From Propionibacteriaceae bacterium (GTDB taxonomy: Bacteria > Actinomycetota > Actinomycetes > Propionibacteriales > Propionibacteriaceae), in NCBI GenBank assembly GCA_031268515.1, contig JAIRXC010000088.1, positions 1 through 39,201 of the forward strand: DNA of 39,201 nt, given 5' to 3'. This document shows, in pieces, positions 19,889-37,696 of the stretch (positions are counted from its first letter, which is position 1; every line of letters begins with the position of its first letter). The notes under the pieces were generated by a model that was not told the origin of the DNA, searched no databases, and worked only from the letters and a program-made list of their open reading frames with translations. Position numbers and translations under genes: made by a program.

Positions 19889-22800
19889 TTGGACCCGGTC
19901 CGCCCCCGCCGCCATCACGTAAGGAAAGTTGTGTTTCGGCTTGCCGTCCTGTCTCTGCGCAACCGCGCAGTGGTCGCGCTCGTCGCCTTGGCCATCATGG
20001 CAGCCGGCGTGGCCGCGGTCGGCGCGCTGAAACGTGAGTTGATACCTTCGCTCGACATCCCCATGGCGGCTGTCATCGCCTCTTACCCTGGCAGCTCGCC
20101 GGCCGTCGTCTCGGCCCAGGTGACCGATCCCATCGAGGCGGCCGTCCGCGGCGTCAGCGGCGCCACGTCCATCGAATCGACCAGTTCGACCGGCCTGTCA
20201 ACAACCATCGTGAGCTTCGACTACGGCACTGACATGGACCAGGCCAACCAGCGCCTGGCCGCCGCCGTCAACCGTGTGTCAGCCGCTTTGCCCAGCAGCG
20301 TCGAAACGCAAATCGTGACAGGTTCGATGGACGACTTCCCCATCCTCCGCTTGTCTGTCACGGGGGGAGACGACCCGGCCGCCGTCGCCGCTGTCGTCAC
20401 GGACGTCCTCGTGCCCCGCCTGCGCGACTTGGCTGACGTCCGCGCCGTCGATGTCCACGGCTACACCGCCGATGTCATCACTGTGGCCCCCGACGCCGCC
20501 GCCATGGCGCAATACGGTGTCACAACGGCGCAAATCTTGTCAGTTTTACGTGACAATGGCCTCACCGTGCCTGTGGGCACGGTCGCCAAGGCCGACAAGA
20601 CGATCTCCGTCCAAATCGGCAATCCCGTGACGACCGCCGAACAACTCGAAAACCTCCCCCTGACGATTTACCAACCCCCCGCCCCCGACCAGCCGACCCC
20701 GTCCCGCGGCGCCACCCCCACCCCAGGGCCGCTGCCGGAGCCTGTCACCGTCACCTTGGGCCTTGTCACGAATATCTCTTTGGCTCCAGAAACTGTCACA
20801 TCGTATTCCCGTTTCAACGGCGAAGCCGCCATCGACGTGGCTGTGACCAAGACCCCAGCTGGCAACACCGTCGATGTGGCCGCCGCCGTGGACGAGGTGT
20901 TGGCCGACCTGGCCGGGGTGTTGGCCGAACGCGGCTGCGCCGCCCAGGTCTCCTACAGCCAAGCTCCCTTCATTGAGCAATCCATCGAGTCGCTCGCCAC
21001 AGAGGGGCTCATCGGTTTGGCCGCCTGCATTGCCGTCATCCTATTGTTCCTTCTGTCGTTGCGGGCCACGTTGGTGTCAGCGGTGTCCATCCCCTTGTCG
21101 ATCCTCGCTGTCTTCATCGGCTTGCGGCTGACGGGCGGGACCTTGAACATCCTCACAATCGGCGCCATCGCCATCGCCATCGGCCGAGTCGTGGACGATT
21201 CGATCGTCGTCATCGAGAACATCCGCCGCCATCTGACCTACGGGGAAGACAAGCTCCCCGCCATCACGGCCAGCGTCCGCGAGGTGGCCGGGGCGGTGGC
21301 GGCCTCGACCGTTTGCACCGTGGCGGTCTTCTTGCCCATGGCTTTCGTCACCGGCCTGGTCGGGGAACTGTTCACCCCCTTCGCGGCAACCGTGGCGATC
21401 TCCTTGGCAGCCTCCCTCGTCGTCGCGCTCACCATCGTGCCCGTCCTCGCCTATTGGTTCGTCAAGCGTCCCGTCGTCGTCGACGCCGCCGACGCGGAAC
21501 GCCAGCGCGCTGCCGCCGAGGCCAAAGAACGCCGTTCGCCGCTCCAACGCGGTTATCTCGGCGCCCTCCGCGCCGCCCTCGCCCATCCTGTCGTCACCGT
21601 CGTCCTCGCCGCTTTCATCCTCGGCGGCACGGCTTGGTTCGCCCGCGGCCTCGAAACGAATTTCCTCGGCGCCCAAGGCCAAGACACTGTTACGGCGACC
21701 TTGGCCTTCCCGCCCAACACGTCGCTGGCCGCCCAAGACGCCGGCGCCAAGCAGGTCGAGGAAATGCTCAGCCAGTTCCAAGGCGACGACGGTTTCATCA
21801 CCGCAGTGCAAACGACCGTTGGGGCTGCCGGCTCCCTGGCCGCGCTGGGTTCCGCCGGGCAGCCGACCGCCTCTTTCGCTTTGACGGTGACGCCGGAGTC
21901 CGCCGCCGACGCCCCGGCCCGGATACGGCAGGCGCTGGCTGGCCTCAACCCGGCTGTCGGCGCCATAGAAGTGTCCGACGGCAGTTCGATGATGGGTTCG
22001 ACGACGGTCGACCTTGTCATCCGGTCCGACGACTCAGCTCACCTGGCCGACGCCGCCGCCGCCGTCGAGGCCATGGCGGCAGCCCTGCCGGAAACCGCCG
22101 CCGTCGGCAGCAACTTGTCGGCCAGCCAGGAATTGTACGAAATCCGGGTCGACCGCGTTCGCGCCCTCTCCTTCGGCCTGACCGAATCCCAGGTCGCCAG
22201 CCTTGTCGCCTCCCTCGTCCAGCCGGTCCAGATCGGCTCGGTCAGCGACGGCGGCACGACGACAGCCGTCCAGGTCTCCTTGGGCGCGAGCCCCGGCAGC
22301 CTTGAAAACCTCATGGGCCTGCCTGTCGCGACGACTCCCGCCGGGCCGGTCACGTTAGGCCAGGTCGCCACGGCTTATCTCGTGGACGCTCCCGCCGCCA
22401 TCACGACGAGCCAAGGCAAGCGCAGCGCCACGGTTTCCGTCACTCCAGCCGGAACCGACCTCGGCGCCTTGACGACGGCGCTCACGGCTGGCCTGGCCGG
22501 CCTCGACCCGGCTCAAGACTGCGACCCGCTGCGGACCGTCTGCCTGCCGGAAGGCGTGACAGTCGAGATTTCCGGACTGGCCCAACTGCAAGCCGACGCC
22601 TTCGGCGACCTCGGACTGGCGCTGCTCATCGCCATCGCCGTCGTCTACATCGTCATGGTCGCCGCCTTCGGCTCCCTCCTCCAACCCTTCATCCTCCTCA
22701 TTTCCATCCCCTTCGCCGCCACGGGAGCCCTCATCGCCCTCCTCGCCAGCGGCACTCCGCTCGGCGTCGCGCCCCTCATCGGCCTCCTCATGCTCGTCGG

Positions 22801-25030
22801 CATCGTCGTGTCCAACGCCATCGTCCTCATCGACCTCATAAACCAATACCGCCGCCGCGGCCTCAGCGTCCAACAAGCGATCGAAGACGGCGCCCGCCAG
22901 CGCCTACGGCCCATCCTCATGACCGCCGCTGCCACCGTTTTGGCCCTCCTGCCCATGGCCCTCGGCGTGACGGGCCACTCGTCTTTCCTGTCGCAACCCC
23001 TCGCCCTCGTCGTCATCGGCGGGCTCGTCTCTTCGACCGTTTTGACTCTCGTCGTCGTACCGACCCTCTACCGCGTCGAAGCTTTGGCCCACGACCACCG
23101 CGGCGTCCGGCGCGAAGCCGCGATGGCCCGCCGTCGCCAGGAGCGGGCCGAAAGCCTTGGTTTGGCGGCCGGCTTGGAGGACGGCGCGGCGGGCGGCAAC
23201 GGGCCGGACGGCGAGACGCCGGAAGACGGCGACGACGATGGCGATACGGCCGTCCCGGCCCGGGGGTTGGACGGCGCGGCCGCAGGGCGGGACGGCGTCG
23301 GCCGTGGTTTGGACGGCGCGGCCGGCGAAGGCCTTGAAGGCGGCCGGCCGGAGCGCCTGGGCCGCGGCGAGGCTGCTTCCCGCCGCGGCGCCGGGGACGG
23401 CGGGGAGCGCGGGTCGGCAGGACGAGATCCAGACGGGTCGGCGCGCAGCCGGCGCGGCGCGGGCGGCGCAGCGGGATTGGACTGGGGGTCGGACGATGTG
23501 GCTGCGACCGCTTCGCGCCGGTTCCTCAATCCCCCGATCACGACGGCCGTCAGAGCCTTTGGGGCCGCGGACAGCCAAGCCGCGGCGCCAACGCTCGGCG
23601 ACGGAGCCTCGTCAACGGCCGGCGGGCCGGGGCCGTCGGCGGCGGCGTCCGGCGACCTGCCTCCCTACCGTGTCACCGGCCCGGGCCAACCGGACCGGGC
23701 CACCGGCGATGACTCAAGTTGGGCTGTTCCGGGCGGGCCGGATTGGCCTGGCGGCGGTCCGGCGGCGCCGGATTGGGCCGCCTCTGACGGGCCGTCCCAA
23801 GAGGCCGGCCGGTCTGGCGGCGCCGACCGGCCTTTGCGGGATCGGCCCGGGGCGCCTCTGGACTGGTTGGCGGCCGAGGCCGGCGGTTTGGCGCCGGATG
23901 GCGCCTCTGGCCGCTTGGACGGGCAGGCTGTAGGCGAGCGAACCGGGTCTTTCGACCGGGGTCCGCAGGAGATGGCGCAGGGAAACGAGGGCGCCGCGGG
24001 GGGTCTGTTCAAGCGCCGTGGAGACCAGGACGCCGATGGGCAAACTCAACTTTCAAATCAAGGTCTTGGCGAGGTAGCGTTGGCAGGCGGCAGGGCTTCG
24101 TGGGCTTCGCTTGGCGATTCGGCGGCCGGCGGCCGGCCCGGCGCCTCGTCTTCCTCTTCCGCTGGCCGGTCTGGCGCCTCGCTTGGGTTCGGCGGACCAG
24201 ACGGCCTGACGCCGGCTGGCGGCCCCGGCGGTTCGCCGCCGCGATCGGATCTTGAAAGCCCAGGCCGCCGCGGTGAGCCCGCCGCTCCCGTCGACGCCGC
24301 GGCGACCGCAGCAGAACAAGAAGCCTTACGGTGGTTGGCTCAGATCAAGGGCGTCGCCCAGGCCGGCCAGGCTGCCCCGCCGTCGCCGCCTCGGCCGACT
24401 CGTGCCGGCCGGCTGCCGTCGGTTCCCTCGCCGGAATCAGCGCGCTGGGACGCCGGCCGCCCGGCGGCTGGGCCGGCCGACGGTGGAACCGGCTTTGGCG
24501 AGCCTCCGGCGACGGTTGGCCCCGCCGCTGGCACCGCCTTTGGCGAGCCCTCCGAAATGGGGTCTGTCGATGCTGACGGTGCCTTTGGCGGCCCTTTGGC
24601 GGGCGCTGGTTTCGACGCTGGAACCGCCTACAGCGAGTCTTTTACGGGGGCTGGTTTCGATGCTGGAACTGGCTTTGGGGAGCCTCCTGCGAGGGCTGGT
24701 TTCGACGCTGGAACCGCCTTTGGCGAGCCTTCTGCAGGGGGTGGTTTCGACGCTGGAACTGGCTTTGGGGAGCCACCTGCGGGGGCTGGTTTCGACTCTG
24801 GCGCCGCTTTTGGCGAGCTTCCTGCGGCGGCTGGTTTCGACCCGGCCAACGCGTTTGCCAGCTCGCCCGCCGTTTTCGGAACCGTTTCCCCAGACAGCTC
24901 GGACAACGCCGACGGCGCGGGTCCTCTGACAGGGGAAACCGAGTCCGCCGGCCCGCTCTCGCCCGGGGACATCGTCCGCTCTTGGCGCGAGTTGCCGCCG
25001 CTTCCCAATCCCCACCCCTTCTGGTCCTGA
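19889..25030 (+). CDS. RND-family efflux permease (AcrB/HAE1-like) with very long low-complexity C-terminal extension
   Basis: ELIPSLDIPMAAVIASYPGSSPAVVSAQVTDPIEAAVRGV, IAIAIGRVVDDSIVVIENIRRHL, GELFTPFAATVAISLAASLVVALTIVPVLAYWF, LMLVGIVVSNAIVLIDLINQYRRRGLS. Exact start uncertain (GTG at 19931 also in frame). Confidence 0.93.
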   Translation: MDPVRPRRHHVRKVVFRLAVLSLRNRAVVALVALAIMAAGVAAVGALKRELIPSLDIPMAAVIASYPGSSPAVVSAQVTDPIEAAVRGVSGATSIESTSSTGLSTTIVSFDYGTDMDQANQRLAAAVNRVSAALPSSVETQIVTGSMDDFPILRLSVTGGDDPAAVAAVVTDVLVPRLRDLADVRAVDVHGYTADVITVAPDAAAMAQYGVTTAQILSVLRDNGLTVPVGTVAKADKTISVQIGNPVTTAEQLENLPLTIYQPPAPDQPTPSRGATPTPGPLPEPVTVTLGLVTNISLAPETVTSYSRFNGEAAIDVAVTKTPAGNTVDVAAAVDEVLADLAGVLAERGCAAQVSYSQAPFIEQSIESLATEGLIGLAACIAVILLFLLSLRATLVSAVSIPLSILAVFIGLRLTGGTLNILTIGAIAIAIGRVVDDSIVVIENIRRHLTYGEDKLPAITASVREVAGAVAASTVCTVAVFLPMAFVTGLVGELFTPFAATVAISLAASLVVALTIVPVLAYWFVKRPVVVDAADAERQRAAAEAKERRSPLQRGYLGALRAALAHPVVTVVLAAFILGGTAWFARGLETNFLGAQGQDTVTATLAFPPNTSLAAQDAGAKQVEEMLSQFQGDDGFITAVQTTVGAAGSLAALGSAGQPTASFALTVTPESAADAPARIRQALAGLNPAVGAIEVSDGSSMMGSTTVDLVIRSDDSAHLADAAAAVEAMAAALPETAAVGSNLSASQELYEIRVDRVRALSFGLTESQVASLVASLVQPVQIGSVSDGGTTTAVQVSLGASPGSLENLMGLPVATTPAGPVTLGQVATAYLVDAPAAITTSQGKRSATVSVTPAGTDLGALTTALTAGLAGLDPAQDCDPLRTVCLPEGVTVEISGLAQLQADAFGDLGLALLIAIAVVYIVMVAAFGSLLQPFILLISIPFAATGALIALLASGTPLGVAPLIGLLMLVGIVVSNAIVLIDLINQYRRRGLSVQQAIEDGARQRLRPILMTAAATVLALLPMALGVTGHSSFLSQPLALVVIGGLVSSTVLTLVVVPTLYRVEALAHDHRGVRREAAMARRRQERAESLGLAAGLEDGAAGGNGPDGETPEDGDDDGDTAVPARGLDGAAAGRDGVGRGLDGAAGEGLEGGRPERLGRGEAASRRGAGDGGERGSAGRDPDGSARSRRGAGGAAGLDWGSDDVAATASRRFLNPPITTAVRAFGAADSQAAAPTLGDGASSTAGGPGPSAAASGDLPPYRVTGPGQPDRATGDDSSWAVPGGPDWPGGGPAAPDWAASDGPSQEAGRSGGADRPLRDRPGAPLDWLAAEAGGLAPDGASGRLDGQAVGERTGSFDRGPQEMAQGNEGAAGGLFKRRGDQDADGQTQLSNQGLGEVALAGGRASWASLGDSAAGGRPGASSSSSAGRSGASLGFGGPDGLTPAGGPGGSPPRSDLESPGRRGEPAAPVDAAATAAEQEALRWLAQIKGVAQAGQAAPPSPPRPTRAGRLPSVPSPESARWDAGRPAAGPADGGTGFGEPPATVGPAAGTAFGEPSEMGSVDADGAFGGPLAGAGFDAGTAYSESFTGAGFDAGTGFGEPPARAGFDAGTAFGEPSAGGGFDAGTGFGEPPAGAGFDSGAAFGELPAAAGFDPANAFASSPAVFGTVSPDSSDNADGAGPLTGETESAGPLSPGDIVRSWRELPPLPNPHPFWS
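24470..24874 (+). repeat. 45-bp/15-aa tandem repeat in the RND C-terminal tail (about 9 units)
   Basis: AGFDAGTAYSESFTG/AGFDAGTGFGEPPAR/AGFDAGTAFGEPSAG/GGFDAGTGFGEPPAG/AGFDSGAAFGELPAA/AGFDPANAFASSPAV from 24605, preceded by three more degenerate units. Confidence 0.9.
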
Positions 25031-25043
25031 GGCCGCCGGCCGC

Positions 25044-27371
25044 CTAGACGGGTTGCCGATTGACGACGGCGATGAGGTCGGCCAGGCCGAGCCACCACTG
25101 CTGGGCCGGCCGCTGGTGTGCCGTGTCCGTCGCCTTCATCGCCTCGGCCAGATCTGTCACGATGAGCCGCTCGACATCGGCCCCGACACAGGCGTAGCCC
25201 GCCGTGCCGGCCGCCCACTCCGCCGCCGCCCAACTGAGCGCCTGCTCGGCCAACTCCGTCGCGAGGATGCGGTCGGCTGGCGTCGGCGTGCCGCCTTGCT
25301 GGATGTGCCCGATCTGGGCCGTCCGGGTGTCGTAGCGCCCCTGCCCCGCCTCGTCGAGCAGATGCGCCAAGACCGCCGTCGTGTAGTTGGCGTTGGCGTT
25401 TTCGTTGCGCACCCACAAACAAAAGTCACGGTGTTGCTCGTCGAAGCTGTGGACCAGCCAGTCGAGATCGGCCTTGATCTGGCTCAAGGTGACGGTTGTT
25501 TCATTTAAGTAAACTTGTTCAGCGCCGCTGGCCAATGCCCCCATGAGGGCGAGGTAGCCGCAGTCGCGGCCCATCGTCTCTGCCACGAAACAACGCTGTG
25601 AGGCTGAGGCGGAGGTTTTGATCTTGTCGATCGAGTCGACGATGACGTTGAGGGCGGTGTCGGCGCCGATCGACATCTGCGTTCCCGGCAGGTTGTTGTC
25701 GATGGTCGCCGGCAGGCAGACGACCGGCAGTTTGAGGGACGGATAGCGGTCCCGCTCGGCCAGCATGAGGGCGGCGCTTTGATACGCCGTCCAGCCGCCG
25801 ATGACAAGGAGGGCGTCAAGGCGGGCCAACTCGACAGCCCGGGCGACGGCGTAAAGATCTTCGACCGCCGGGGCTGTCCGACGTGTGCCGAGCCGCGCGC
25901 CGCCTTCTTGGTCCCAGCCGTCGACATCCTTCCAAGACAGTTCCCGGACCGCTCCGGCCATGAGTCCGGGGAAACCATCCTCGATCCCGATCATCGTGTG
26001 GCCACGGGCCCAACCGAGCCGCACGACAGCCTTGGCCGCCGCGTTCATGCCCGGGGCCAAACCGCCGGCGTGCATGAGGCCGATCCGTTTGCCGCCGCCG
26101 GCCGGCTGGGCAGCGGGGCCGGAACCGGCCGAGCTGGCGGCCGGAACAACCGTGGACAGACCAGACGGCAACCCGGCGGCGGGATTGGCGCCGGCCGGGG
26201 CGCTCAACTCGTCGAAGAAACTCAAAGCGCTGGCGAATTCGTCGCCGCGGGCCCGGACGGCCGCGTCGTAATCGCCGGCTTTGACGAGCGTGGAAACACG
26301 CCTGGTTTCAGCCACCGCCTCGGCCAGAGGGAGCGCGACGACCTGATAGCCGTGGAAGCCGAAGACCGGGCCTGGTTCCTCGCCGGTCGCCGTCAAGACG
26401 TGGGCGGCGGCCGAATAGCCAAGCCAGGTGGAAGCCCAACGGTCGTACGCGCTCGGCTGCCCGCCGCGTTGGACGTGGCCGAGGATCGTGACGCGGGCCT
26501 CCTCGCCCAACTCTTCTTCAATGGCCTGGCGGACGTAATCCGCTGTGATCGGCCGCCCCGACCGATCAGTCGCCCCCTCGGCCAAGATGACAATGGAGTC
26601 TTTCCGGCCGGCGGTGCGGCCACGCCGGAGTTGTTCGCACATGGCTTGCTCCCAGCCGTCGGCGGGGGGCCGCTCGGGCAAGAGGACGAAGTCGCAGCCG
26701 CCCGAGACGGCGGCCATCAAGGCCAGGTAGCCGCAGTGGCGGCCCATCACCTCAACGACGAAGGCCCGCTGGTGGCTGGCGGCGGTCGAGGCGACGGCGT
26801 CGATGGCGTCTTGGATGCGGTGGAGGGCGGAATCCGCGCCGATCGTCAGATCGGAGCCGACAAGGTCGTTGTCGATGGAGCCGACCAGGCCGGCGTAGAC
26901 AAGACGGGGGTGCGCGGCGGCTTGGGCGGGCGTGATCTCGCCTGCTTCGGCTAATTCCTGAAGCAGGCCGGGCCACTCGGACGCGAACTGGTTCAGGCCG
27001 CTGAGAGAGCCGTCGCCGCCGATGACGACGAGCCGGTCGATGCCGCGGGCGACGAGGTTGGCGCAGGCTCGCAGCCGTCCGGCCCGCTCTCGGAAGCCCG
27101 GGGAGCGGAAGGTGCCGATGACCGTGCCGCCGCGGTTGAGGATGCCAGAGACGTCGTCCCACGAGAACTCGCGGAGGCCGTCGCCGCCGTCGATGAGGCC
27201 TTGGTAGCCCTCTGACACGGCGTAGGCGCTGGCCCCAACGGACAAGGCAGTCCGGATCACGGCCCGCAGGGCGGCGTTCATGCCTTGGGCGTCGCCGCCG
27301 CTGGTCAAGACGGCCAGCCGACGGCCCCGGGCCGCGGCCAAGTCGGACGGGGACAAGAGCAAGGGGCGCAT
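25044..27371 (-). CDS. Fused two-domain, eukaryote-like 6-phosphofructokinase
   Basis: Two PFK halves: LAVLTSGGDAQGMNAALRAVIR / VIGGDGSLSG / GSIDNDLVGSDLTIGADSAL and IGLMHAGGLAPGMNAAAKAVV / VIGGWTAYQSA / PATIDNNLPGTQMSIGADTAL. Confidence 0.93.
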   Translation of the reverse strand: MRPLLLSPSDLAAARGRRLAVLTSGGDAQGMNAALRAVIRTALSVGASAYAVSEGYQGLIDGGDGLREFSWDDVSGILNRGGTVIGTFRSPGFRERAGRLRACANLVARGIDRLVVIGGDGSLSGLNQFASEWPGLLQELAEAGEITPAQAAAHPRLVYAGLVGSIDNDLVGSDLTIGADSALHRIQDAIDAVASTAASHQRAFVVEVMGRHCGYLALMAAVSGGCDFVLLPERPPADGWEQAMCEQLRRGRTAGRKDSIVILAEGATDRSGRPITADYVRQAIEEELGEEARVTILGHVQRGGQPSAYDRWASTWLGYSAAAHVLTATGEEPGPVFGFHGYQVVALPLAEAVAETRRVSTLVKAGDYDAAVRARGDEFASALSFFDELSAPAGANPAAGLPSGLSTVVPAASSAGSGPAAQPAGGGKRIGLMHAGGLAPGMNAAAKAVVRLGWARGHTMIGIEDGFPGLMAGAVRELSWKDVDGWDQEGGARLGTRRTAPAVEDLYAVARAVELARLDALLVIGGWTAYQSAALMLAERDRYPSLKLPVVCLPATIDNNLPGTQMSIGADTALNVIVDSIDKIKTSASASQRCFVAETMGRDCGYLALMGALASGAEQVYLNETTVTLSQIKADLDWLVHSFDEQHRDFCLWVRNENANANYTTAVLAHLLDEAGQGRYDTRTAQIGHIQQGGTPTPADRILATELAEQALSWAAAEWAAGTAGYACVGADVERLIVTDLAEAMKATDTAHQRPAQQWWLGLADLIAVVNRQPV

Positions 27372-27763: not shown

Positions 27764-28672
27764 TCAGGTGTAGAGGGAGCCAGCGTTGACGACCGGTGTG
27801 GCGCGGGAGTCAGAGCACAAGACGACGAGCAGGTTCGACACCATGGCGGCCTTGCGCTCCTCGTCCAACTGGACAATGTCATTGTCTTGGAGGTGGGTGA
27901 GGGCGCTTTCGACCATCGTCACGGCGCCTTCGACGATCCGGCTGCGGGCCGCCAGCAGGGCGTCGGCTTGCTGACGCTGCAACATGGCTTGGGCGATTTC
28001 GGGGGCGAAGGCCAAAGATGAGATGCGAGTCTCGATGACGCGCAGGCCCGCGATGGCGATCCGGGCCCTGACTTCGCCGGCCAGTTCTTCGGCCACCAGG
28101 TCGGTTGCCCCACGCAGGGTCGGTTCGCCCTCGTGGCCGTTGTCGTAGGGGTGGATCGTGGCGATGTGGCGCAAGGCGGCCTCGGACTGGACCTTGACGA
28201 ATTGCTCGTAGTCCTCGACTGCGAAAGTCGATTGGGCGGTGTCGGCGACCTGCCAGACGATGATGGCGGCGATGTTGATCGGGTTGCCGGTGGAGTCGTT
28301 GACCTTCAACTCATGGGTCTCGAAGTTGCGCACCTTGATCGAGACGCGCCGTTTCAAGGTCAGAGGGTAAGTCAGCCGGAGGCCGTCCCGGCGGACAGTG
28401 CCGACGTACTTGCCGAAGAAACAGATGACCTTGGTGTCGCCGGGCGAGATGATGGTGAAAGAGGTCAAGATGAGGCAGGTCAGCAAAAACAGGAGCAGGC
28501 CGACCAGGAGCGGGAGGAGTTCATCGCCGCTGACGGCGAACAGCCAGATGGCGACCCCCCAGGCGGCCAGGCAGAAGATGATGGCGTACAGGCCGTTGAC
28601 CGAGGCGGCGACACGTTCTTTGACAGCGACGGCCGGCGACGGGATTGAAGTGGGCGGGATGAGGTTGGACAT
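27764..28672 (-). CDS. SPFH/band-7 domain membrane protein
   Basis: N-terminal TM pair, [33 protein letters not shown]...[62 protein letters not shown]. Confidence 0.92.
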
Positions 28673-29019: not shown

Positions 29020-29262
29020 ATGCAAGCTGGTTACTATATTGCCCAATTCATTTTTAACAAACTTAATGCAATGGGTTGGGTTTCGGCTCGAAACTGGGTA
29101 GCCAATCTCGTCGGCGTTACTCTGGCAACCACCATAATGAATGTCCTCGCGGCAGGCGGCGTGGTCGGCCTTGGCGCGTATTTTGGCTTCCACTCGTATC
29201 TTTATGGGTTCTTTGCAGGACCCATCGGTGCGGTGGTGCTTGGCGTGGTCGGTTCTCTGTAA
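29020..29262 (+). CDS. Candidate circular-bacteriocin-like precursor peptide 1 (80 aa)
   Basis: MQAGYYIAQFIFNKLNAMGWVSARNWVANLVGVTLATTIMNVLAAGGVVGLGAYFGFHSYLYGFFAGPIGAVVLGVVGSL; SD GAGAGGGG; colinear and about half identical to the next ORF. Confidence 0.75.
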   Translation: MQAGYYIAQFIFNKLNAMGWVSARNWVANLVGVTLATTIMNVLAAGGVVGLGAYFGFHSYLYGFFAGPIGAVVLGVVGSL

Positions 29263-29466
29263 GCGAACGAACCAGTCGGTTCCTGAGGGTAAACTAATGA
29301 TGAGGCGCCTATCTGGTATCGGTCCATCCCCAGCCGTCATTTCATGACAGTAAAACATTGCAGAAAGAACGAGTAATTTCGGCCGTCTTGTGCAGCCGCT
29401 AGACAACGGGTGCGCAGGATTACACAGAGAGCGTTTATTTTTCGCATCAACTAGAAAGGAATTATG

Positions 29467-29709
29467 ATGCAAGCAGGTTATCTATTGGCGCAGTACCTTC
29501 TCAAGAAGCTCAACGCTAGCGGCAGCGCAGCCGCGAGGAATCAGCTAGCAGCTTTTGTTGGCATGGCGACCGCTTCGACAATCGTGTGCATCCTCCAAGC
29601 TGGTGGAGTGGCTGCTCTCACTGTCTGGTTCGGGGCAAACTCAGCTGTTGTTGGAGCGCTGGCCGGCCCCTTCGGTGTCGTGGGTCTTGCAGTTATCGGC
29701 GCTCTCTGA
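29467..29709 (+). CDS. Candidate circular-bacteriocin-like precursor peptide 2 (80 aa)
   Basis: MQAGYLLAQYLLKKLNASGSAAARNQLAAFVGMATASTIVCILQAGGVAALTVWFGANSAVVGALAGPFGVVGLAVIGAL; SD AGAAAGGA; alternative ATG one codon upstream at 29464. Confidence 0.75.
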   Translation: MQAGYLLAQYLLKKLNASGSAAARNQLAAFVGMATASTIVCILQAGGVAALTVWFGANSAVVGALAGPFGVVGLAVIGAL

Positions 29710-29781
29710 CATCACTTTAAGACGCCAACTCTGATAGGGGTTGGAGTTTCTATCCTTAAGGGCAGCGTGTAAGTGAGTTCT

Positions 29782-29904: not shown

Positions 29905-30384
29905 ATGAGACGGCTATTACCGGTTCTCGTGCTGGCCTATATAAGTTTCATTACTTGGATGGCTTATGATAATGTAGACAGTGATTTTATGCGCACAATA
30001 GCTCAGACGAACAAATCGTGGGTAGTTGTTGTGGCTCTTGGTGTTCTATATTCTGGTATCACGCTAGTGACAATTTGGTTAATTCGTCTATTATATCGTT
30101 TCGCCTATAGGTTGGCGGTTCCGGGTGAGTTCTGTGCGAAGACGGTGAACTCCCAAGGGCTGCTCATGATTGTCATGTGCCTCTTTTCTCACGCGCTAGC
30201 TGTGTGGGTCAAGATTATTTCAGGGTTGGCGCTTGGGGCGGTTTCTTTTCTATTTCCGTTGGGGTTAATCATTTGGATTGGCATGAAGGACCCGCTACTC
30301 CGTGGCGCCCGTAAGATCATCGTTGGGACTCCTTTGTATCTGTACATCCTCGCTGATGCGGCTTTGATCATTTGGTTTCAGTAG
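29905..30384 (+). CDS. Small polytopic membrane protein (159 aa), bacteriocin island
   Basis: Several hydrophobic segments; SD TAAGGA upstream of ATG. Confidence 0.75.
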   Translation: MRRLLPVLVLAYISFITWMAYDNVDSDFMRTIAQTNKSWVVVVALGVLYSGITLVTIWLIRLLYRFAYRLAVPGEFCAKTVNSQGLLMIVMCLFSHALAVWVKIISGLALGAVSFLFPLGLIIWIGMKDPLLRGARKIIVGTPLYLYILADAALIIWFQ

Positions 30385-30392
30385 GCAGCTCG

Positions 30393-30962
30393 ATGGTTAA
30401 TACAGAAACTTCGACGCGACACTCGGAACGCGCAGAGGTACTGTCAGAAATAATTCTGTGCCATGTAGCTCTCGCGGTATTTCTCGCCTTTGTTGGCTTC
30501 TTGGTCGCAGAGTGGGCGGTGGCCGGGTTCTTTGGAGATGCCCTGCGGCAATCAACATTGCCGGTCACGCTTTCGGTGACTCACAGCGAGATGTGGGGGA
30601 TATTTTTCCATAACATAGCATTTTTTCTCGCGGTGTCTGTTCTGCCTATGTTTAATTCCGTCGTCGTGGCCGCACAATTCTTTATCCTGGGGGCCATGGC
30701 AAGTCTAATCACGAATCTACCGCCGTCGGTACAATTCGAAATATTCTATCGCCATGCGCTCCTCGAGGTTGCTGCGCTACTATTGGCCGTGGCCGTGAGC
30801 TATGTCCTGTATTTTTCGGTTAGGCAATTCATTAAGGCACCTCGACGAGACACAGGAGCATTGAAGTGGAGGCTTTTACCGGCTATTCCCATGTACGCTG
30901 GTATCGTCACTCTGACGCTAATTGGTGCAATTTTGGAGGGATCTGTCTTTGTACGTCTTTGA
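30393..30962 (+). CDS. SpoIIM/DUF95-like membrane protein
   Basis: SEMWGIFFHNIAFFLAVSVLPMFNSVVVAAQFFILGAMASLI...FEIFYRHALLEVAALLLAVAVSYVLYF follows the DUF95/SpoIIM pattern (N-rich TM, H-x-x-x-E-x-x-A-x-x-x-A). Confidence 0.7.
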   Translation: MVNTETSTRHSERAEVLSEIILCHVALAVFLAFVGFLVAEWAVAGFFGDALRQSTLPVTLSVTHSEMWGIFFHNIAFFLAVSVLPMFNSVVVAAQFFILGAMASLITNLPPSVQFEIFYRHALLEVAALLLAVAVSYVLYFSVRQFIKAPRRDTGALKWRLLPAIPMYAGIVTLTLIGAILEGSVFVRL

Positions 30963-31530
30963 TGAGATGTCATTTCGTTACCGAGAATGGGTCTTCGAAG
31001 CCTACTCGGGCTCCATCGAAATTTCCAAGGTTGGACTCGTGGGAAAGAATGGTTGTGGTAAGACGACGTTGCTCAAGCTGCTTGATCGGCAGCTTAAGCC
31101 TCAGAAGGGGCGTATTAGGGTGGCGGGGTCGACTTACATGGTCGATTTTGACTTGTCATCGTACAAGGCTTTCTGGCCAGATGATGTCGTGGAACTCTGC
31201 TCTCATCTGAGTTCTTTTGACACGACGCAGGCCGATCACGTCATCGACTATCTCGGGTTGGGAGATTACATCAAGACTCCGATAGGAGAACTCTCCAAAG
31301 GCACAGTCAAAAAAGTGGCGCTGCTGATGGGGTTCATGTCCACAGCCGATGTCTTATTGGTCGACGAACCCTTTGAGTCCATCGATCAAGAGTCAAATTC
31401 CCACCTGGTGATGATGTTGCGGCAGCGTCAGGGGAGCCACGTAATTGTCAGCCATGATGAGGGTATTCTGCGTCAATGTGTAGACACGGTCTACACGATT
31501 ACCGATAGGAAGCTGGCGGAAAGCCCGTGA
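30949..31530 (+). CDS. ABC transporter ATP-binding protein
   Basis: GLVGKNGCGKTTLLKLL (Walker A), ELSKGTVKKVALLMGF (signature), ADVLLVDEPFESID (Walker B), HVIVSHDEG. TTG start at 30949 after GGAGG; overlaps upstream gene. Confidence 0.85.
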   Translation: MYVFDEMSFRYREWVFEAYSGSIEISKVGLVGKNGCGKTTLLKLLDRQLKPQKGRIRVAGSTYMVDFDLSSYKAFWPDDVVELCSHLSSFDTTQADHVIDYLGLGDYIKTPIGELSKGTVKKVALLMGFMSTADVLLVDEPFESIDQESNSHLVMMLRQRQGSHVIVSHDEGILRQCVDTVYTITDRKLAESP

Positions 31531-32840
31531 GAGATCTCTGCTCATCGCTGGTCCGTGTAGAGTTCCGCCGCCGCCAGTTTAAGCCCGTCAAGCAGACTTT
31601 TATCGGTCTCGGAGTGGGGACTGGAATGTCAGTATTCATGTTGGCCAGTCCGCAGTGGACGCTTTTCGCTCTGTTATTGTACTGCGTTTTCACCCAGTTC
31701 ATCGCCATGGACAGCAATGGCATATTTCTAAGTTTTCGCGATTGGTATCGCCTCGGTTTCCGCAGGCCTAGTTGGACTTATCGGATCGCCTATGTCACCG
31801 ATTACGTCATGCGCGACTGGTGGTTGGCAGATATCTTAGCCCTGATCGTTTGCTTGTTCGGCGCTATAGTGCAAAGCAAAACCCTATGGGGGGTGATCAT
31901 ATGGATCGTCTGGGTGGTTAATCTATGCGTGTTGCCTAGCCACGCTTACCTGGGATTCCGTACGACGGCCAAGGCTCGGACCATTTATTTGACAATTCTA
32001 ATGAGTTTTCTTGGCGGCGCTGCTCTGCTGTATGCCACCGGTTTTGATCTGCCAGATTGGGTCTGGTCTTGGATGCCTTTGTGGTGGCCGATTTTCTGCA
32101 TGATTTACCTGTTGGGCCTTGACGTTGTGACCTCCCGGATCCATACCCCGGGCTTCGACACCCACGGCGAGAGGAGGATCTTTGCTTGGATTCGACCACT
32201 GTCGCCGTTCTTGTTTAAAGATTTGCTGCTTTTCTATGGCATGGCAGTCGGCGCTGTATTTCTGGCAGGCTGCTTGTTCTTCGCGCTCCTGCCGACTGCC
32301 AATGGCTTACCCAAAATGCTGACCGTCAATGCGTTCATCGTTCTCGGTTGGATAAACCTGTTTATGGCTCGCAAAGAAAAGAATTACCGCCTCATAGCCG
32401 AGGATAACGTGTTCTCAGAGCAGGCTCTGCCACGCGATGGCCGCTTCATACGACACCGAAAGTTTGGCACTTTGGCTCTGGGGGCGATGATTCCGTTTGC
32501 TCTCTGTTGCATTGTGGCTCTGAGCGTCTCTTCCTCGTGGCGAATCTTACTGCTAGCAGCTGCTGTCTTTGCCGCCGGACTGGTCATCGACGCGCCGCTC
32601 ATCATCAGACGAGGCGCACTGGCCCGCAGACTGCGGACCGTAGTCAAGTATTCAATGATCCTCTTGCTGGCTCCGGTGATCTATACCGGTGGCTCTGAGT
32701 GGTCCATATTGGTCTACTGCGGCGTCCTATGCCTCCTGTATGCTCCTTCGTGTATCAGAGTTTATGGGATACGGCCTCGAAGAGTGCGATCTGGAGACTT
32801 AAACCGAACCGAGGCGCATGCAGTTGTTAGCGATATCTGA
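31527..32840 (+). CDS. Large polytopic membrane protein (437 aa), putative partner of the ATPase
   Basis: GTGA overlap with ATPase stop; many TM segments. Confidence 0.8.
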   Translation: MRDLCSSLVRVEFRRRQFKPVKQTFIGLGVGTGMSVFMLASPQWTLFALLLYCVFTQFIAMDSNGIFLSFRDWYRLGFRRPSWTYRIAYVTDYVMRDWWLADILALIVCLFGAIVQSKTLWGVIIWIVWVVNLCVLPSHAYLGFRTTAKARTIYLTILMSFLGGAALLYATGFDLPDWVWSWMPLWWPIFCMIYLLGLDVVTSRIHTPGFDTHGERRIFAWIRPLSPFLFKDLLLFYGMAVGAVFLAGCLFFALLPTANGLPKMLTVNAFIVLGWINLFMARKEKNYRLIAEDNVFSEQALPRDGRFIRHRKFGTLALGAMIPFALCCIVALSVSSSWRILLLAAAVFAAGLVIDAPLIIRRGALARRLRTVVKYSMILLLAPVIYTGGSEWSILVYCGVLCLLYAPSCIRVYGIRPRRVRSGDLNRTEAHAVVSDI

Positions 32841-32860: not shown

Positions 32861-33109
32861 ATGAAAACAAGCGAATTCAGGCATCTCGTTGAGCCGTTCG
32901 CGGCAGGATCTGATTATGTCGTTTATGGGTTGCGAAAAGCGAAACTCAATCAGTCCTGGTGGCATAAGATGGTAGTTGCCTTATCTCCATCGAGAGGCGT
33001 CATCGACTCAGAGGGCGGAATCTGGTTCCTGGTGGCGTGTGACTCACATAGCCTTTGCGCTGTCACTATGCCGTTTACCTGGAAACGGCTCGGCAGCGTT
33101 GATTTCTGA
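32861..33109 (+). CDS. Small protein (82 aa) of unknown function; candidate immunity/accessory protein
   Basis: ATG preceded by AAGGA; positioned between the membrane protein and the MacAB-like genes. Confidence 0.6.
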   Translation: MKTSEFRHLVEPFAAGSDYVVYGLRKAKLNQSWWHKMVVALSPSRGVIDSEGGIWFLVACDSHSLCAVTMPFTWKRLGSVDF

Positions 33110-33155: not shown

Positions 33156-34466
33156 ATGAACATGAGAGCTATTTCAAGGACATGTTGGCAAATCTCTGAC
33201 GGTGTCCGGCTATGGCGAAATATCGTTTATATCATCACGATGGCGGCGCTGGCTTGTACCCTGACGAGTTGTAAAGACCCAGTGAGCGAACCGCAGACTT
33301 ATGTTCTTCAATACGAGAAGTATTCATATGCCGGGAATTTCATGCCAGCGATGATTTATCCTCTCGATCTCTCGAAAGCAGATGTCGCATACGCGGCTGG
33401 GACGCAGGTGGTCAAAGGGGAGGATCTGAGAGCCCAGACTCCCGAAATCCAGGAAATGTTGGCGCGCCTCCAGGCTAAAATCGACCACGCTATGAGTGAA
33501 AAAGACAGAGTATTGAGAGCTCTCGCTGAACTGAATCGTGGAGGGTTCGCCTACGAATGGGTGTCAGACGCTAGCCCGGAATCAGACGAGGTCCGCCAAG
33601 CGGGGCACGAAATCCAGTCCACAATTATTTCCTATAATCGTTCAGTTTCAGATTACACGCTACAAGCAATGAAGACAGATGCCGACATCGCCTCGTTGCA
33701 AACTCATATTGCATTAGCCGCGCCATGTGACGAAGCTGAGCCAGTAAGTACGCCTGCAACGCCCCAGATAACGCCCCAGATATCGTGCACCGATAATGCT
33801 ACATTGTTGAACTTACGCCAGCAGATAACTGACCTCAATGGCGCACGTGAGTCTGCAAGGACGGACTTGTCCTTCACCAAGATGGCTACAGATAATCAAC
33901 TGGGCTCATCCTTCGAAGCGCTTGCTGGCGTGTACGACCGCCTTATTGATGGCAACATCCAACAAATAGACACCTACCATGTGCCTTCTCCCGATTCCGG
34001 CACGCTCTCTATTGAAGATGGCAAGGCGTATGTGCTTTCGGCTGAATTCGTATTCGTATATATAGCGACGGAAACTCAGGTGGAAGCGCTGTCCGCCGCG
34101 ACCGATCTAAAAGCGGAGGTCGATGGCCATGTAGTAGCTGACTTGCTGTTGGCCTCAGTTAATTTCAGCGCCGAGTTCACAACGGATTTCCACTTGCCGA
34201 AATATGAAATGACATTCAGCGCCGAGAATACTCGACACGGGTTTGTTCCCAGTTCTCATGGAACGGCCACTATGACGCGCACATCCACTTCCATCGTCAT
34301 CCCGCCCGATTTTCTTGGCTTGCAGGGAGAGCGCAATTACGTACTTCTAGACGGTCGGGAAGTCACGGTCCAAGTCGTCAAGAATGCCGATGGCCAATGG
34401 GTATTGTTGTCTCCGTACTCGTCTCTCAGTGTAGGAGATGTCATTCAGGAAGTAGTGGGTGGGTAA
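33156..34466 (+). CDS. Lipoprotein, HlyD/MacA-like adaptor
   Basis: Signal and lipobox ALACTLTSC; predicted coiled-coil region (QEMLARLQAKIDHAMSEKDRVLRALAEL...); followed by TAATG-coupled ATPase and FtsX-type permease. Confidence 0.7.
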   Translation: MNMRAISRTCWQISDGVRLWRNIVYIITMAALACTLTSCKDPVSEPQTYVLQYEKYSYAGNFMPAMIYPLDLSKADVAYAAGTQVVKGEDLRAQTPEIQEMLARLQAKIDHAMSEKDRVLRALAELNRGGFAYEWVSDASPESDEVRQAGHEIQSTIISYNRSVSDYTLQAMKTDADIASLQTHIALAAPCDEAEPVSTPATPQITPQISCTDNATLLNLRQQITDLNGARESARTDLSFTKMATDNQLGSSFEALAGVYDRLIDGNIQQIDTYHVPSPDSGTLSIEDGKAYVLSAEFVFVYIATETQVEALSAATDLKAEVDGHVVADLLLASVNFSAEFTTDFHLPKYEMTFSAENTRHGFVPSSHGTATMTRTSTSIVIPPDFLGLQGERNYVLLDGREVTVQVVKNADGQWVLLSPYSSLSVGDVIQEVVGG

Positions 34467-35134
34467 TGATCAGCCTCACTGACGTCGGAAAGGTGTATAG
34501 AGGCAGGAATTTTGAAGTTGAGGCTCTGCGAAATGTTGATCTACAGGTGCCTATGGGGCAGTTCCTCTCCATCGTGGGAAAGAGCGGATCGGGCAAATCT
34601 TCTCTGCTTAAGATCATCGGCCTCTTAGACTTCGACCACACCGGCGAATACCTCTTCCACGGGTTGCGGTATGGAGGAGCTAAGGACTCCTTCGTCACGT
34701 CCGCCCGGAAAAATATTGGATACGTTTTCCAGGACTTTCAGTTGATCAGACGGTACACATTACGGAAGAATCTTCGAATAGCTGCCGCTATTCGAAAAGG
34801 ATCGCCCGTGGATGAGGAGGTCGATCTTTGCCTGGAGCGAGTGGGAATTGCAGACAAAGCGTTGAGCTATCCTGATGAATTAAGTGGCGGGCAGAAACAG
34901 AGAGCATCAGTTGCGCGAGCGATCATTGGCCAACCACGACTCATCATTGCGGATGAGCCTACTGGGTCCCTGGACTCGTCAACAGCTCAACAGATCGTGA
35001 CACTTCTGCGACAAGTGCACGATGACCTCCAGTGTTGCTTACTTCTCGTCACACACGATTCTGATATTGCTATGACTGCTGACAGGGTCGTAAAACTGGT
35101 GGCAGGAGAAGTTCGCCATGATATTCTTTATTAG
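34466..35134 (+). CDS. MacB/LolD-type ABC ATPase
   Basis: GKSGSGKSSLLKIIGLLD, YVFQDFQLIRRYTLRKNL, DELSGGQKQRASVARAIIGQPRLIIADEPTGSLD. Confidence 0.93.
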   Translation: MISLTDVGKVYRGRNFEVEALRNVDLQVPMGQFLSIVGKSGSGKSSLLKIIGLLDFDHTGEYLFHGLRYGGAKDSFVTSARKNIGYVFQDFQLIRRYTLRKNLRIAAAIRKGSPVDEEVDLCLERVGIADKALSYPDELSGGQKQRASVARAIIGQPRLIIADEPTGSLDSSTAQQIVTLLRQVHDDLQCCLLLVTHDSDIAMTADRVVKLVAGEVRHDILY

Positions 35135-36245
35135 GAACTGTCTCCAGGGCTTGTGGTTTAACAAGCTACGGTCGGCCCTAACCGGGATTGGCGTTCTGGT
35201 TGGAGTAGCCTCGGTCGTTCTCATTATGACCCTCTCAGCCTCCCTCCTAAATGATCTTAGCAACCAGAAGCCCAACTCGTGCGATTTCATCTTGATGAGC
35301 AGCGCTGAGGCCAATTTTGACCCGATGATTGTGATGTCCGACTCCGATATTGTGTCGAGACTTTCAACGATTTCCAAACGTCCAGATGTCAGCAGTTTCA
35401 CTCCGTCTAAGGTTGAGGCGCGGGTCCATGCGCAATTGGCATCAGGTGGTGACATCGGTTTCTTGGTTGCAGAGTTCGCTGACGATGTCCCTGTCGAGCA
35501 AGGACAGCCTTTCAGCCAGACGTCAGGCAATGTGGCAATCATGTACCGAAATCAAGAGTTTGCCAATATTAAGATTGGCGCGCGCATACTAGTCGACGGT
35601 GAAGTCTTCACCGTCATCGGTCTCACAGATTCACTCGGAACGGGGGGATCGACTCGACTATATTTTCCCTTGCGCTTGGAAGGACATGTGCACATCCATG
35701 AGGAAAGCGTGGCAGCGGCCTATACTCTTAGGGTGGCTAATGGAGTTGATCTCATGTCCGTGTGTCAATCCGCTCTGCGGCAACTCAACACAGGGATCGA
35801 CCCCAACTTGAAATTCATCGATATGAATGCTGAATTATCATCCATGCTGCAACAGTCCTTATTGTCGGTTCAAGTGGTTCTTGCGCTGATTGCCTCCGTT
35901 TCGTTGGCTGTTGCGGCGCTTAACATCTTAAACACAATGTACATCGCCACGCTCGAGAGGGCCGACGAGATCGCCATCTTCAAGTCGTTGGGAATGACGC
36001 GCGCTAGAGTGGTGCTGCTGTTCATTTTCGAATCAGTCGTCGTGGTGGCTTTGTTCGCCGCCATGGGCTGCCTCTTGGGCAATCTAGGCGCGTTAGTGAT
36101 TCTATCGCTGGTGGGTATGCCGATGGTATTTTCATGGCCCAGTGTGGTGGTGCTGCTGCCAGTCACTATCCTCGTTGGCCTAGGCGGGGGCTTCTACCCC
36201 GCGTATCGAGCTGCGAAGATCGATCCCGTTAGGCTGTTGAGATAG
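35118..36245 (+). CDS. MacB/FtsX-type ABC permease
   Basis: N-terminal TM plus NKLRSALTGIGVLVGVASVVLIMTL; C-terminal ALNILNTMYIATLERADEIAIFKSLGMTRARVVLLFIFES...YPAYRAAKIDPVRLLR. Confidence 0.93.
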   Translation: MIFFIRNCLQGLWFNKLRSALTGIGVLVGVASVVLIMTLSASLLNDLSNQKPNSCDFILMSSAEANFDPMIVMSDSDIVSRLSTISKRPDVSSFTPSKVEARVHAQLASGGDIGFLVAEFADDVPVEQGQPFSQTSGNVAIMYRNQEFANIKIGARILVDGEVFTVIGLTDSLGTGGSTRLYFPLRLEGHVHIHEESVAAAYTLRVANGVDLMSVCQSALRQLNTGIDPNLKFIDMNAELSSMLQQSLLSVQVVLALIASVSLAVAALNILNTMYIATLERADEIAIFKSLGMTRARVVLLFIFESVVVVALFAAMGCLLGNLGALVILSLVGMPMVFSWPSVVVLLPVTILVGLGGGFYPAYRAAKIDPVRLLR

Positions 36246-36298: not shown

Positions 36299-37696
36299 TT
36301 AATCTGGCGGCGGCGGGGGAACTGCGCCGCCGGTGAACTGCATGTCCGCGTCGTTGGCGAAGCGGGCCAGGTGGCCTTGGAAAAGCAGCTTGATGTTCCT
36401 TGTGGCCCCGTTGCGGTTCTTGGCGACGATGACTTCGGCGTCGCCGGTCCGCTTGGCCGGATCTGGCTGATAGGCGTCGTCGCGGTGGAGGAGGATGACG
36501 ATGTCGGCGTCTTGCTCCAAGGAGCCGGATTCACGCAGGTCCGACAGCATGGGCTTCTTGTCGTTGCGGGCGTCGGGGGCGCGGTTGAGCTGGGACAACG
36601 CGATGACCGGGAGGCCGAGTTCCTTGGCCAAGAGCTTGATCTGGCGGGAAAACTCGGAGACCTCGACCTGGCGCGATTCGACCTTCTTGCCCGAACTCAT
36701 GAGCTGGATGTAGTCGATGATGACGAACTTGAGGTCGTGGCGCTGCTTGAGCCGGCGGGCCTTGGCTCGGATTTCCATCATCGTCAGGTTGGGCGAGTCG
36801 TCGAGGAACAAGGGCGCGCCGGACAGGCGGCTGGAGACGGCGGCCAGACGCTCCCAGTCGGCTTCCAAGTTGCCGGTCCGGATCGACTGGAGGTTGATGC
36901 CGGCCTCGGCTGACAACAAACGCATCATGATCTCGAGCGAGCTCATCTCGAGGGAGAAGACGACGGTCGGCAGGCCGTGGCCGATGGCGGCGGCGCGGGC
37001 GAAGTCGAGGGCGATGGTGGACTTGCCGACGGCGGGCCGGGCGGCGACGATGACCATCTGGCCGGGGTGGAAGCCGTTCGTCAGATCGTCAAGCTCCCGG
37101 AAACCGGTCGGGACCCCGGCCAGGCGGCCGCCGTGGGAGGCCAGGGTCTGCATCTCGTCCCAGGTCGGCTCGAGCAGGTCGGCCAAGGGCTTGCAGTCTT
37201 CGTTACGCGAGTTGTCGCCGACCTCGTAGACGGTCTGTTGGGCCATGTCCACGATGTCGTCGACATCGCCCTCGGCCGTGTAACCGAGTTGGGCGATCTT
37301 GATCGAGGCCTCGACCAGGCGGCGCAAGACCGCCTTCTCGCGGACTATCTCCGCGTAGTAGGCGGCGTTGGCGGCGATGGCGACCGAGGAGAGGAGGTCG
37401 TGGATATAAAGGTGGCCGCCGACGCGGCCGATCTCGCCGCGGCGGGTCAGCTCGGCTGCCACGGTGATGGGGTCTGCGGGCTCGCCCCGGCCGTAAAGGG
37501 CCAAGACGGTCTCGAAGATGAGTTCGTGGGCCGGTTTGTAAAAGTCGCGGCCGTGGACCAACTCGATGACGTTGGCGATGGCGTCCTTGCTCATGAGCAT
37601 GGCCCCGAGGACCGACTGTTCCGCCGCCAAATCCTGGGGCGGGGTGCGGTCGACCGAGTCGCCGCGGTATTCGGTGAACTCGCGGATCTGAGTCAA
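36299..37696 (-). CDS. dnaB: Replicative DNA helicase
   Basis: AAEQSVLGAMLMSKDAI, VPTGFRELDDLTNGFHPGQMVIVAARPAVGKSTIALDFAR, VVFSLEMSSLEIMMRLLSAEAG, IDYIQLMSS. TTG start at 37696 after GAGGAGG. Confidence 0.97.
   Translation of the reverse strand: MTQIREFTEYRGDSVDRTPPQDLAAEQSVLGAMLMSKDAIANVIELVHGRDFYKPAHELIFETVLALYGRGEPADPITVAAELTRRGEIGRVGGHLYIHDLLSSVAIAANAAYYAEIVREKAVLRRLVEASIKIAQLGYTAEGDVDDIVDMAQQTVYEVGDNSRNEDCKPLADLLEPTWDEMQTLASHGGRLAGVPTGFRELDDLTNGFHPGQMVIVAARPAVGKSTIALDFARAAAIGHGLPTVVFSLEMSSLEIMMRLLSAEAGINLQSIRTGNLEADWERLAAVSSRLSGAPLFLDDSPNLTMMEIRAKARRLKQRHDLKFVIIDYIQLMSSGKKVESRQVEVSEFSRQIKLLAKELGLPVIALSQLNRAPDARNDKKPMLSDLRESGSLEQDADIVILLHRDDAYQPDPAKRTGDAEVIVAKNRNGATRNIKLLFQGHLARFANDADMQFTGGAVPPPPPD

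Follow-up and report, generated by a model that had tools for sequence, protein, structure and literature searches.

Paralogous precursor peptides of a Propionibacteriaceae gene cluster and their apparent circular permutation relative to AS-48/uberolysin-type bacteriocins

The analyzed window is the whole stretch of 39,201 nucleotides of contig JAIRXC010000088.1 from a Propionibacteriaceae bacterium (assembly GCA_031268515.1). Between an SPFH-type gene and dnaB it contains two ORFs for small precursor peptides, followed by genes encoding membrane proteins, an adaptor and ABC transporter components (Table 1). The second precursor ORF has an alternative start at 29464 (ATGATG), while the start at 29467 yields an 80-aa product in register with precursor 1. 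Each precursor ORF is preceded by a purine-rich stretch (gtagagagggg for the first, actagaaagga for the second), and the hairpin listed after precursor 2 is a possible attenuator. Elsewhere in the window there are an RND-type efflux ORF (19889-25030) with a long low-complexity tail of repeated GFDAGTxFGEP-like motifs, and a 775-aa phosphofructokinase-like ORF (25044-27371, minus strand) whose halves are alike (fused duplicate); a phosphofructokinase-like ORF is found near the SPFH gene in genomes G012 and G014 too.

Table 1. Features of the precursor locus and its flanks, in coordinates of the window.
Feature	Coordinates	Strand	Description
SPFH-type gene (flank)	27764..28672	-	
Precursor peptide 1	29020..29262	+	80 aa; circular-bacteriocin-like, apparently permuted
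Precursor peptide 2	29467..29709	+	80 aa; paralogue of precursor 1
Terminator-like hairpin	29725..29744	+	between precursor 2 and the genes that follow; a match to the consensus that does not exceed chance
159-aa membrane protein	29905..30384	+	about 5 TM
SpoIIM/DUF95-like membrane protein	30372..30962	+	196 aa, divergent; PF01944 E=8e-5
ABC transporter ATPase 1	30922..31530	+	PF00005 E=7e-19; hhalign against AS-48-type ATPases, prob 99.6
437-aa membrane protein	31527..32840	+	about 9 TM; presumed transporter partner
82-aa ORF	32861..33109	+	possible shorter relative of a 113-aa ORF in G003
Probable membrane-fusion/adaptor protein	33156..34466	+	lipoprotein-like start
ABC transporter ATPase 2 (LolD/MacB type)	34469..35134	+	PF00005 E=7.5e-29
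MacB/FtsX-type permease	35118..36245	+	PF02687, PF12704; hhalign against AS-48-type permeases, prob 99.6
dnaB, replicative DNA helicase (flank)	36299..37696	-	

The first-pass annotation of this stretch had described the two 80-aa ORFs as aligning without gaps with about half of the positions identical, and both ORFs are indeed present, with 40 of 80 residues identical in a gap-free alignment. The ungapped score of the pair is 195, compared to -8.4 +/- 11.3 for shuffled sequences (z=18). The DNA identity between the two ORFs is 55%, different codons are used at 30 of the 40 identical residues, dN is 0.42 and dS is saturated. Since the codons differ and the synonymous sites are saturated, the duplication is old, with selection kept on the protein, and the pair is most simply explained by an old local duplication with both copies retained. 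The remark that charge is concentrated in the first ~25 residues was also correct: Lys and Arg are confined to positions 13-24 in both peptides (K14 and R24, plus H58 outside this segment, in precursor 1; K13, K14 and R24 in precursor 2), and Asp and Glu are absent. Both precursors are small and hydrophobic (GRAVY 1.02 and 1.13), as are circular bacteriocin precursors.

Clusters of circular bacteriocins are recognized by a SpoIIM/DUF95 protein and an ABC transporter, and both are found here. The Pfam match of the SpoIIM-like protein lies under the curated cut-off, while its hhalign score against SpoIIM proteins of the AS-48, Bt and Anoxybacillus clusters (41.3) is well above the null maximum (18.4). 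The transporter genes comprise two ATPases and a MacB-type permease. The similarity of the adaptor to AS-48-type adaptors is weak (hhalign 29.4, null maximum 19.8); it is 37% identical to its counterpart in G003. By hhalign, the window cluster has no recognizable counterpart of As-48B, the large membrane protein of the AS-48 type. The 437-aa protein was considered for this role and rejected, its hhalign scores of 15-16 being at the null level (16.0, null mean 15.6), and the 159-aa protein, considered as a second SpoIIM or as As-48B, shows no similarity to either.

The GC content of the cluster genes is 0.47-0.58 (about 0.5), compared to 0.66-0.69 in the neighboring genes. In two congeners (G011 and G015) dnaB is separated from the SPFH gene by at most a few hundred bases and the cluster is absent, hence it is an insertion relative to these genomes. 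The SpoIIM/DUF95 homologue, the AS-48-like gene set and the sequence relation of the precursors to circular bacteriocins described below agree with the proposal of the first-pass annotation that the ORFs encode precursors of a circular bacteriocin, and we regard the operon as probably a circular-bacteriocin-type cluster acquired by this bacterium as an island.

Three further homologues of the precursors were identified. One is encoded in the same genome on contig C43 (L006:231-470, minus strand), near the contig end; it is more cationic, and a further cluster, only partly assembled, is probably located there. Genome G003 has a whole cluster with one precursor. In G058, from another genus of Propionibacteriaceae, one precursor is followed by genes for a 159-aa-type protein and SpoIIM and then by the first part of the ATPase gene, where the contig ends. 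A gene of the 159-aa type adjoins the precursor in G003 as well, and the C43 precursor is followed by what looks like the beginning of one. The SpoIIM protein of G058 is matched by Pfam under the curated cut-off (E=0.0039), and Pfam detects nothing in that of G003. Together with the window pair, these sequences form a family of five members. No others were found in 199 Propionibacteriaceae genomes, weak partial matches in G047 and G065 being excluded from the count (they lie in frames of about 1000 residues), nor in 397 genomes drawn from the order and 396 from the class. A scan of genome contigs for the family recovered the G003 locus alone, and a plasmid search with the window SpoIIM gave no match.

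Several related loci were observed in addition. The G003 cluster has an extra 189-aa lipoprotein-like ORF (L007:10297-10866) between the 113-aa ORF and the adaptor gene, with no Pfam match and no counterpart seen in the window. In G001 (contig C53, L030, 2936-5302) a truncated SpoIIM-like gene, an ABC ATPase gene and a gene for a 463-aa membrane protein occur with no precursor, probably as a remnant of a decayed cluster. Canonical, unpermuted circular-bacteriocin precursors exist in the same family, in G046 (L037), G052 (L038) and G080 (L039). SpoIIM and ABC genes accompany them in G046 and G052, and no SpoIIM was recognized among the proteins tested from the G080 cluster. Clusters of the canonical and of the apparently permuted kind thus coexist in one genus (G046 and G052 versus G058).

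The pairing of precursors had been taken as a sign of a two-peptide circular bacteriocin, in which the two products would be processed and work jointly. The ORFs are both uninterrupted, diverged long ago and are constrained at the protein level, as such a system would demand. Still, the search for paired precursors elsewhere returned one precursor per locus in all three homologous loci (those of G058 and C43 being cut by contig ends). Moreover, two or three precursor copies per cluster have been reported for circular bacteriocins (PMC8659200), and plasmid pFORC087.2 of Bacillus cereus (L025) carries two adjacent precursors. As multi-copy clusters are known, a duplicated precursor is not new and calls for no synergy; none of the observations suggests any, and cooperation between the two peptides seems quite improbable.

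No circular-bacteriocin family of Pfam or NCBIfam matches the precursors. In linear order, the uberolysin/carnocyclin model TIGR03651 does not match them at E<=10, and it has no match in the whole source genome at E<=0.01. The relation to members of TIGR03651 appears after circular permutation, which is not a criterion of the curated family, and permutation is absent from the first-pass annotation. The rotated profile of known cores scores higher than the unrotated one in all five family members, in one register, where the known junction (last to first residue) falls at family residues 26/27. In the hhalign comparison of the five-member family with 13 known cores, the score is 16.5 for the linear and 28.3 for the doubled profile, family residues 10-50 being aligned with columns 54-96. 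Hence residues 10-26 correspond to the cationic C-terminal helices of known cores and residues 27-50 to their N-terminal helix, so that the similarity spans the junction. The 13 references include the cores of uberolysin, garvicin ML, amylocyclicin and lactocyclicin Q; with database-only references, which exclude these, the scores are 17.2 and 29.6.

None of 1000 column shuffles reached the doubled score (null maximum 19.4), while two reached the linear one; overall, doubled scores of 28.3, 29.6 and 27.1 compare with shuffle maxima of 19.4, 18.4 and 17.8. Both parts of the family contribute: 28.3 was reached in none of 1000 shuffles of columns 1-26 (mean 17.0, maximum 25.2) and in none of 600 shuffles of columns 27-80. 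When canonical members were left out in turn, doubling added nothing to their scores. Among the results that count against the permutation are the non-significant doubled score of 16.0 (null maximum 19.8) with the three canonical Propionibacteriaceae precursors as the only reference, and the HHalign probability of the match, which for the five members is only 40-59%.

Taken singly, the cationic C43, G058 and G003 precursors score 28.0, 26.1 and 23.4, above the best (16.4) of 207 hydrophobic 80-residue decoys, circular bacteriocins aside. Window precursors 1 and 2 score 14.7 and 13.5, not clearly above the decoys, and as a two-member profile 21.5 doubled and 15.7 linear. The window pair is tied to the permutation via its relatives, and the case for permutation rests mostly on the three cationic members.

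The invariant residues G19, A28, G32, A36 and G47 are aligned with identical residues of AS-48 (G63, A2, G6, A12 and G23, respectively). The basic residues of AS-48 all lie inside one 26-residue segment, which in the permuted register falls where the window peptides hold their Lys and Arg (helix 4/5 region); the permuted register with its cationic helices would therefore explain the uneven charge noted above. Of the two segments initially likened to known bacteriocins, the circularin-like VGVTLATTIMNVLAAGG stands in homologous register, residues 31-47 being aligned with the N-terminal helix of known cores. The match of AGYYIAQ to carnocyclin was rejected as out of register, since this segment corresponds to the C-terminal helices of known peptides.

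AlphaFold models of both peptides, built template-free from three sequences, are all-helical with a mean pLDDT of 77. In both, the helices break at residues 19 and 32, with a helix at 20-31 in between, and in the permuted register these breaks correspond to G63 and G6 of AS-48. The junction helix 5 of AS-48 spans about residues 64 to 5, and the modeled helix 20-31 would occupy its place. Structure prediction had been suggested as a check for a saposin-like bundle. The helical content is what a circular bacteriocin precursor would show; Foldseek returned nothing significant for either model (AS-48 was first at E=4.9 for one and absent for the other), nor did a PDB sequence search with the family profile give a match. 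Statistically, the profile comparison points to a circular permutation, and the helix breaks of the models are consistent with it. We consider it rather probable that these precursors are naturally occurring permutants of AS-48/uberolysin-type peptides, the ligation point being either moved or no longer needed.

The leader length had been left ambiguous between a few residues and about 25-30. As residues 10-26 correspond to C-terminal helices in known cores, and conservation in this part is no lower than in the remainder (0.48 for residues 2-26 versus 0.44 for 27-80, unlike a leader; cf. PMC8659200), a leader of 0-2 residues seems to fit better, and the longer one is disfavored. Ordinary precursors with a long leader would comprise leader 1-26 and a 54-aa core, Leu27-Leu80, cyclized by a Leu80-Leu27 bond; the resemblance of residues 10-26 to the C-terminal helices would then be a coincidence or reflect an extra copy of that helix serving as the leader. 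Residues 27-50 do align, without permutation, with the beginning of known cores (linear hhalign scores 16.5-19.0), and known leaders span 2 to 48 aa (PMC8659200). However, such a core would lack the cationic helices, and its length would fall below that of all the reference cores (60 aa or more), and the N-terminal columns, conserved like the rest, add about 11 score units relative to the mean of their 1000 shuffles. We regard this arrangement as unlikely.

Under the preferred permuted reading, the chain would start before the cationic helix 4, continue through helix 5 and helix 1 and end after helix 3, so that helix 5, which in AS-48 is made by ligation, would be encoded unbroken. Nearly the entire chain of 78-80 aa would be the core, with at most Met and one polar residue removed. 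The backbone would most likely be closed between about Ala3 and Leu80, which would move the ligation point out of mid-helix 5 and into the loop between helices 3 and 4. SpoIIM, ATPase 1 and the membrane proteins may provide maturation and export, and the adaptor-ABC-MacB trio may give the producer protection in the manner of as-48EFGH. Once mature, the saposin-like peptides would permeabilize membranes of competing Gram-positive bacteria. As tandem precursors occur, it is conceivable, as a speculation, that the permutation arose by duplication, fusion and trimming of such precursors.

Alternatively, with helices 5 and 1 joined in the gene, cyclization may be unneeded, and the products may be permuted but linear leaderless bacteriocins. 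Linear saposin-like leaderless bacteriocins are known in Actinomycetota, Propionibacteriaceae included (PMC11580447), fragments obtained from engineered AS-48 fusions, linear or permutated, were active against Listeria (PMC4284732), and the As-48B-type protein was not found in the window cluster. On the other hand, DUF95/SpoIIM is described as class-defining for circular bacteriocins, leaderless clusters having no such protein (PMC11580447), and it is retained in G003 and G058. Moreover, residues at both chain ends are invariant across the family (A3, G4, Y5 and G78, L80), as expected of ligation substrates. Because of the retained SpoIIM and the invariant ends, closure at a new site is favored over a linear state, the latter being a possible but weaker candidate. 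It shares the permutation with the preferred reading and differs in the last step, and the confidences in the rival readings overlap.

We know of no identified enzyme that cleaves and closes circular bacteriocins. All known ligation sites sit within a hydrophobic helix (review, PMC6131525). A natural permutant, if confirmed, would separate the needs of the fold from those of the ligation site, having the same fold and other ends with SpoIIM kept, and would suggest that the site at which ring-shaped bacteriocins are joined has been shifted, or dispensed with, in nature. The presence of canonical and permuted clusters in one family and genus would allow the roles of SpoIIM and the ligation site to be tested by comparison. 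Engineered permutants of AS-48 are already known (PMC4284732), and no report of natural permutation of circular bacteriocins was found in the literature searched, mostly journals open without subscription.

Among known systems, the AS-48 cluster of pPD1 (L019) has the order precursor, large membrane protein, SpoIIM, ATPase, small proteins, adaptor, ATPase, permease. The window cluster resembles it in the precursor, SpoIIM and ABC ATPase genes followed by the adaptor-ABC-permease set, and in the cationic helices and the pattern of sequence across helices 5 and 1. It differs in the apparently permuted chain order, the probable lack of a long leader, the absence of a recognizable As-48B homologue, the additional 159-aa membrane protein and the presence of two precursors. 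The uberolysin/carnocyclin family has a related core sequence, but its canonical members from G046, G052 and G080 match TIGR03651 linearly, unlike the window pair and its relatives. Multi-copy clusters (groups 1, 2 and 5 of PMC8659200; L025) also have adjacent paralogous precursors followed by one processing set, but they are unpermuted and come from Firmicutes. The leaderless aureocin A53/lacticin Q-like bacteriocins of Actinomycetota (PMC11580447) are likewise small and saposin-like, sometimes with several peptides per operon, but, unlike the window, have no protein of the DUF95 class; no PH-domain family was recognized in the window cluster by Pfam and NCBIfam. Finally, the swaposins, which are saposin domains in permuted order (Ponting and Russell 1995, cited in PMC4862142), are linear domains and not bacteriocins, but they exemplify natural circular permutation of a saposin-type fold, as is proposed here for the precursor family.
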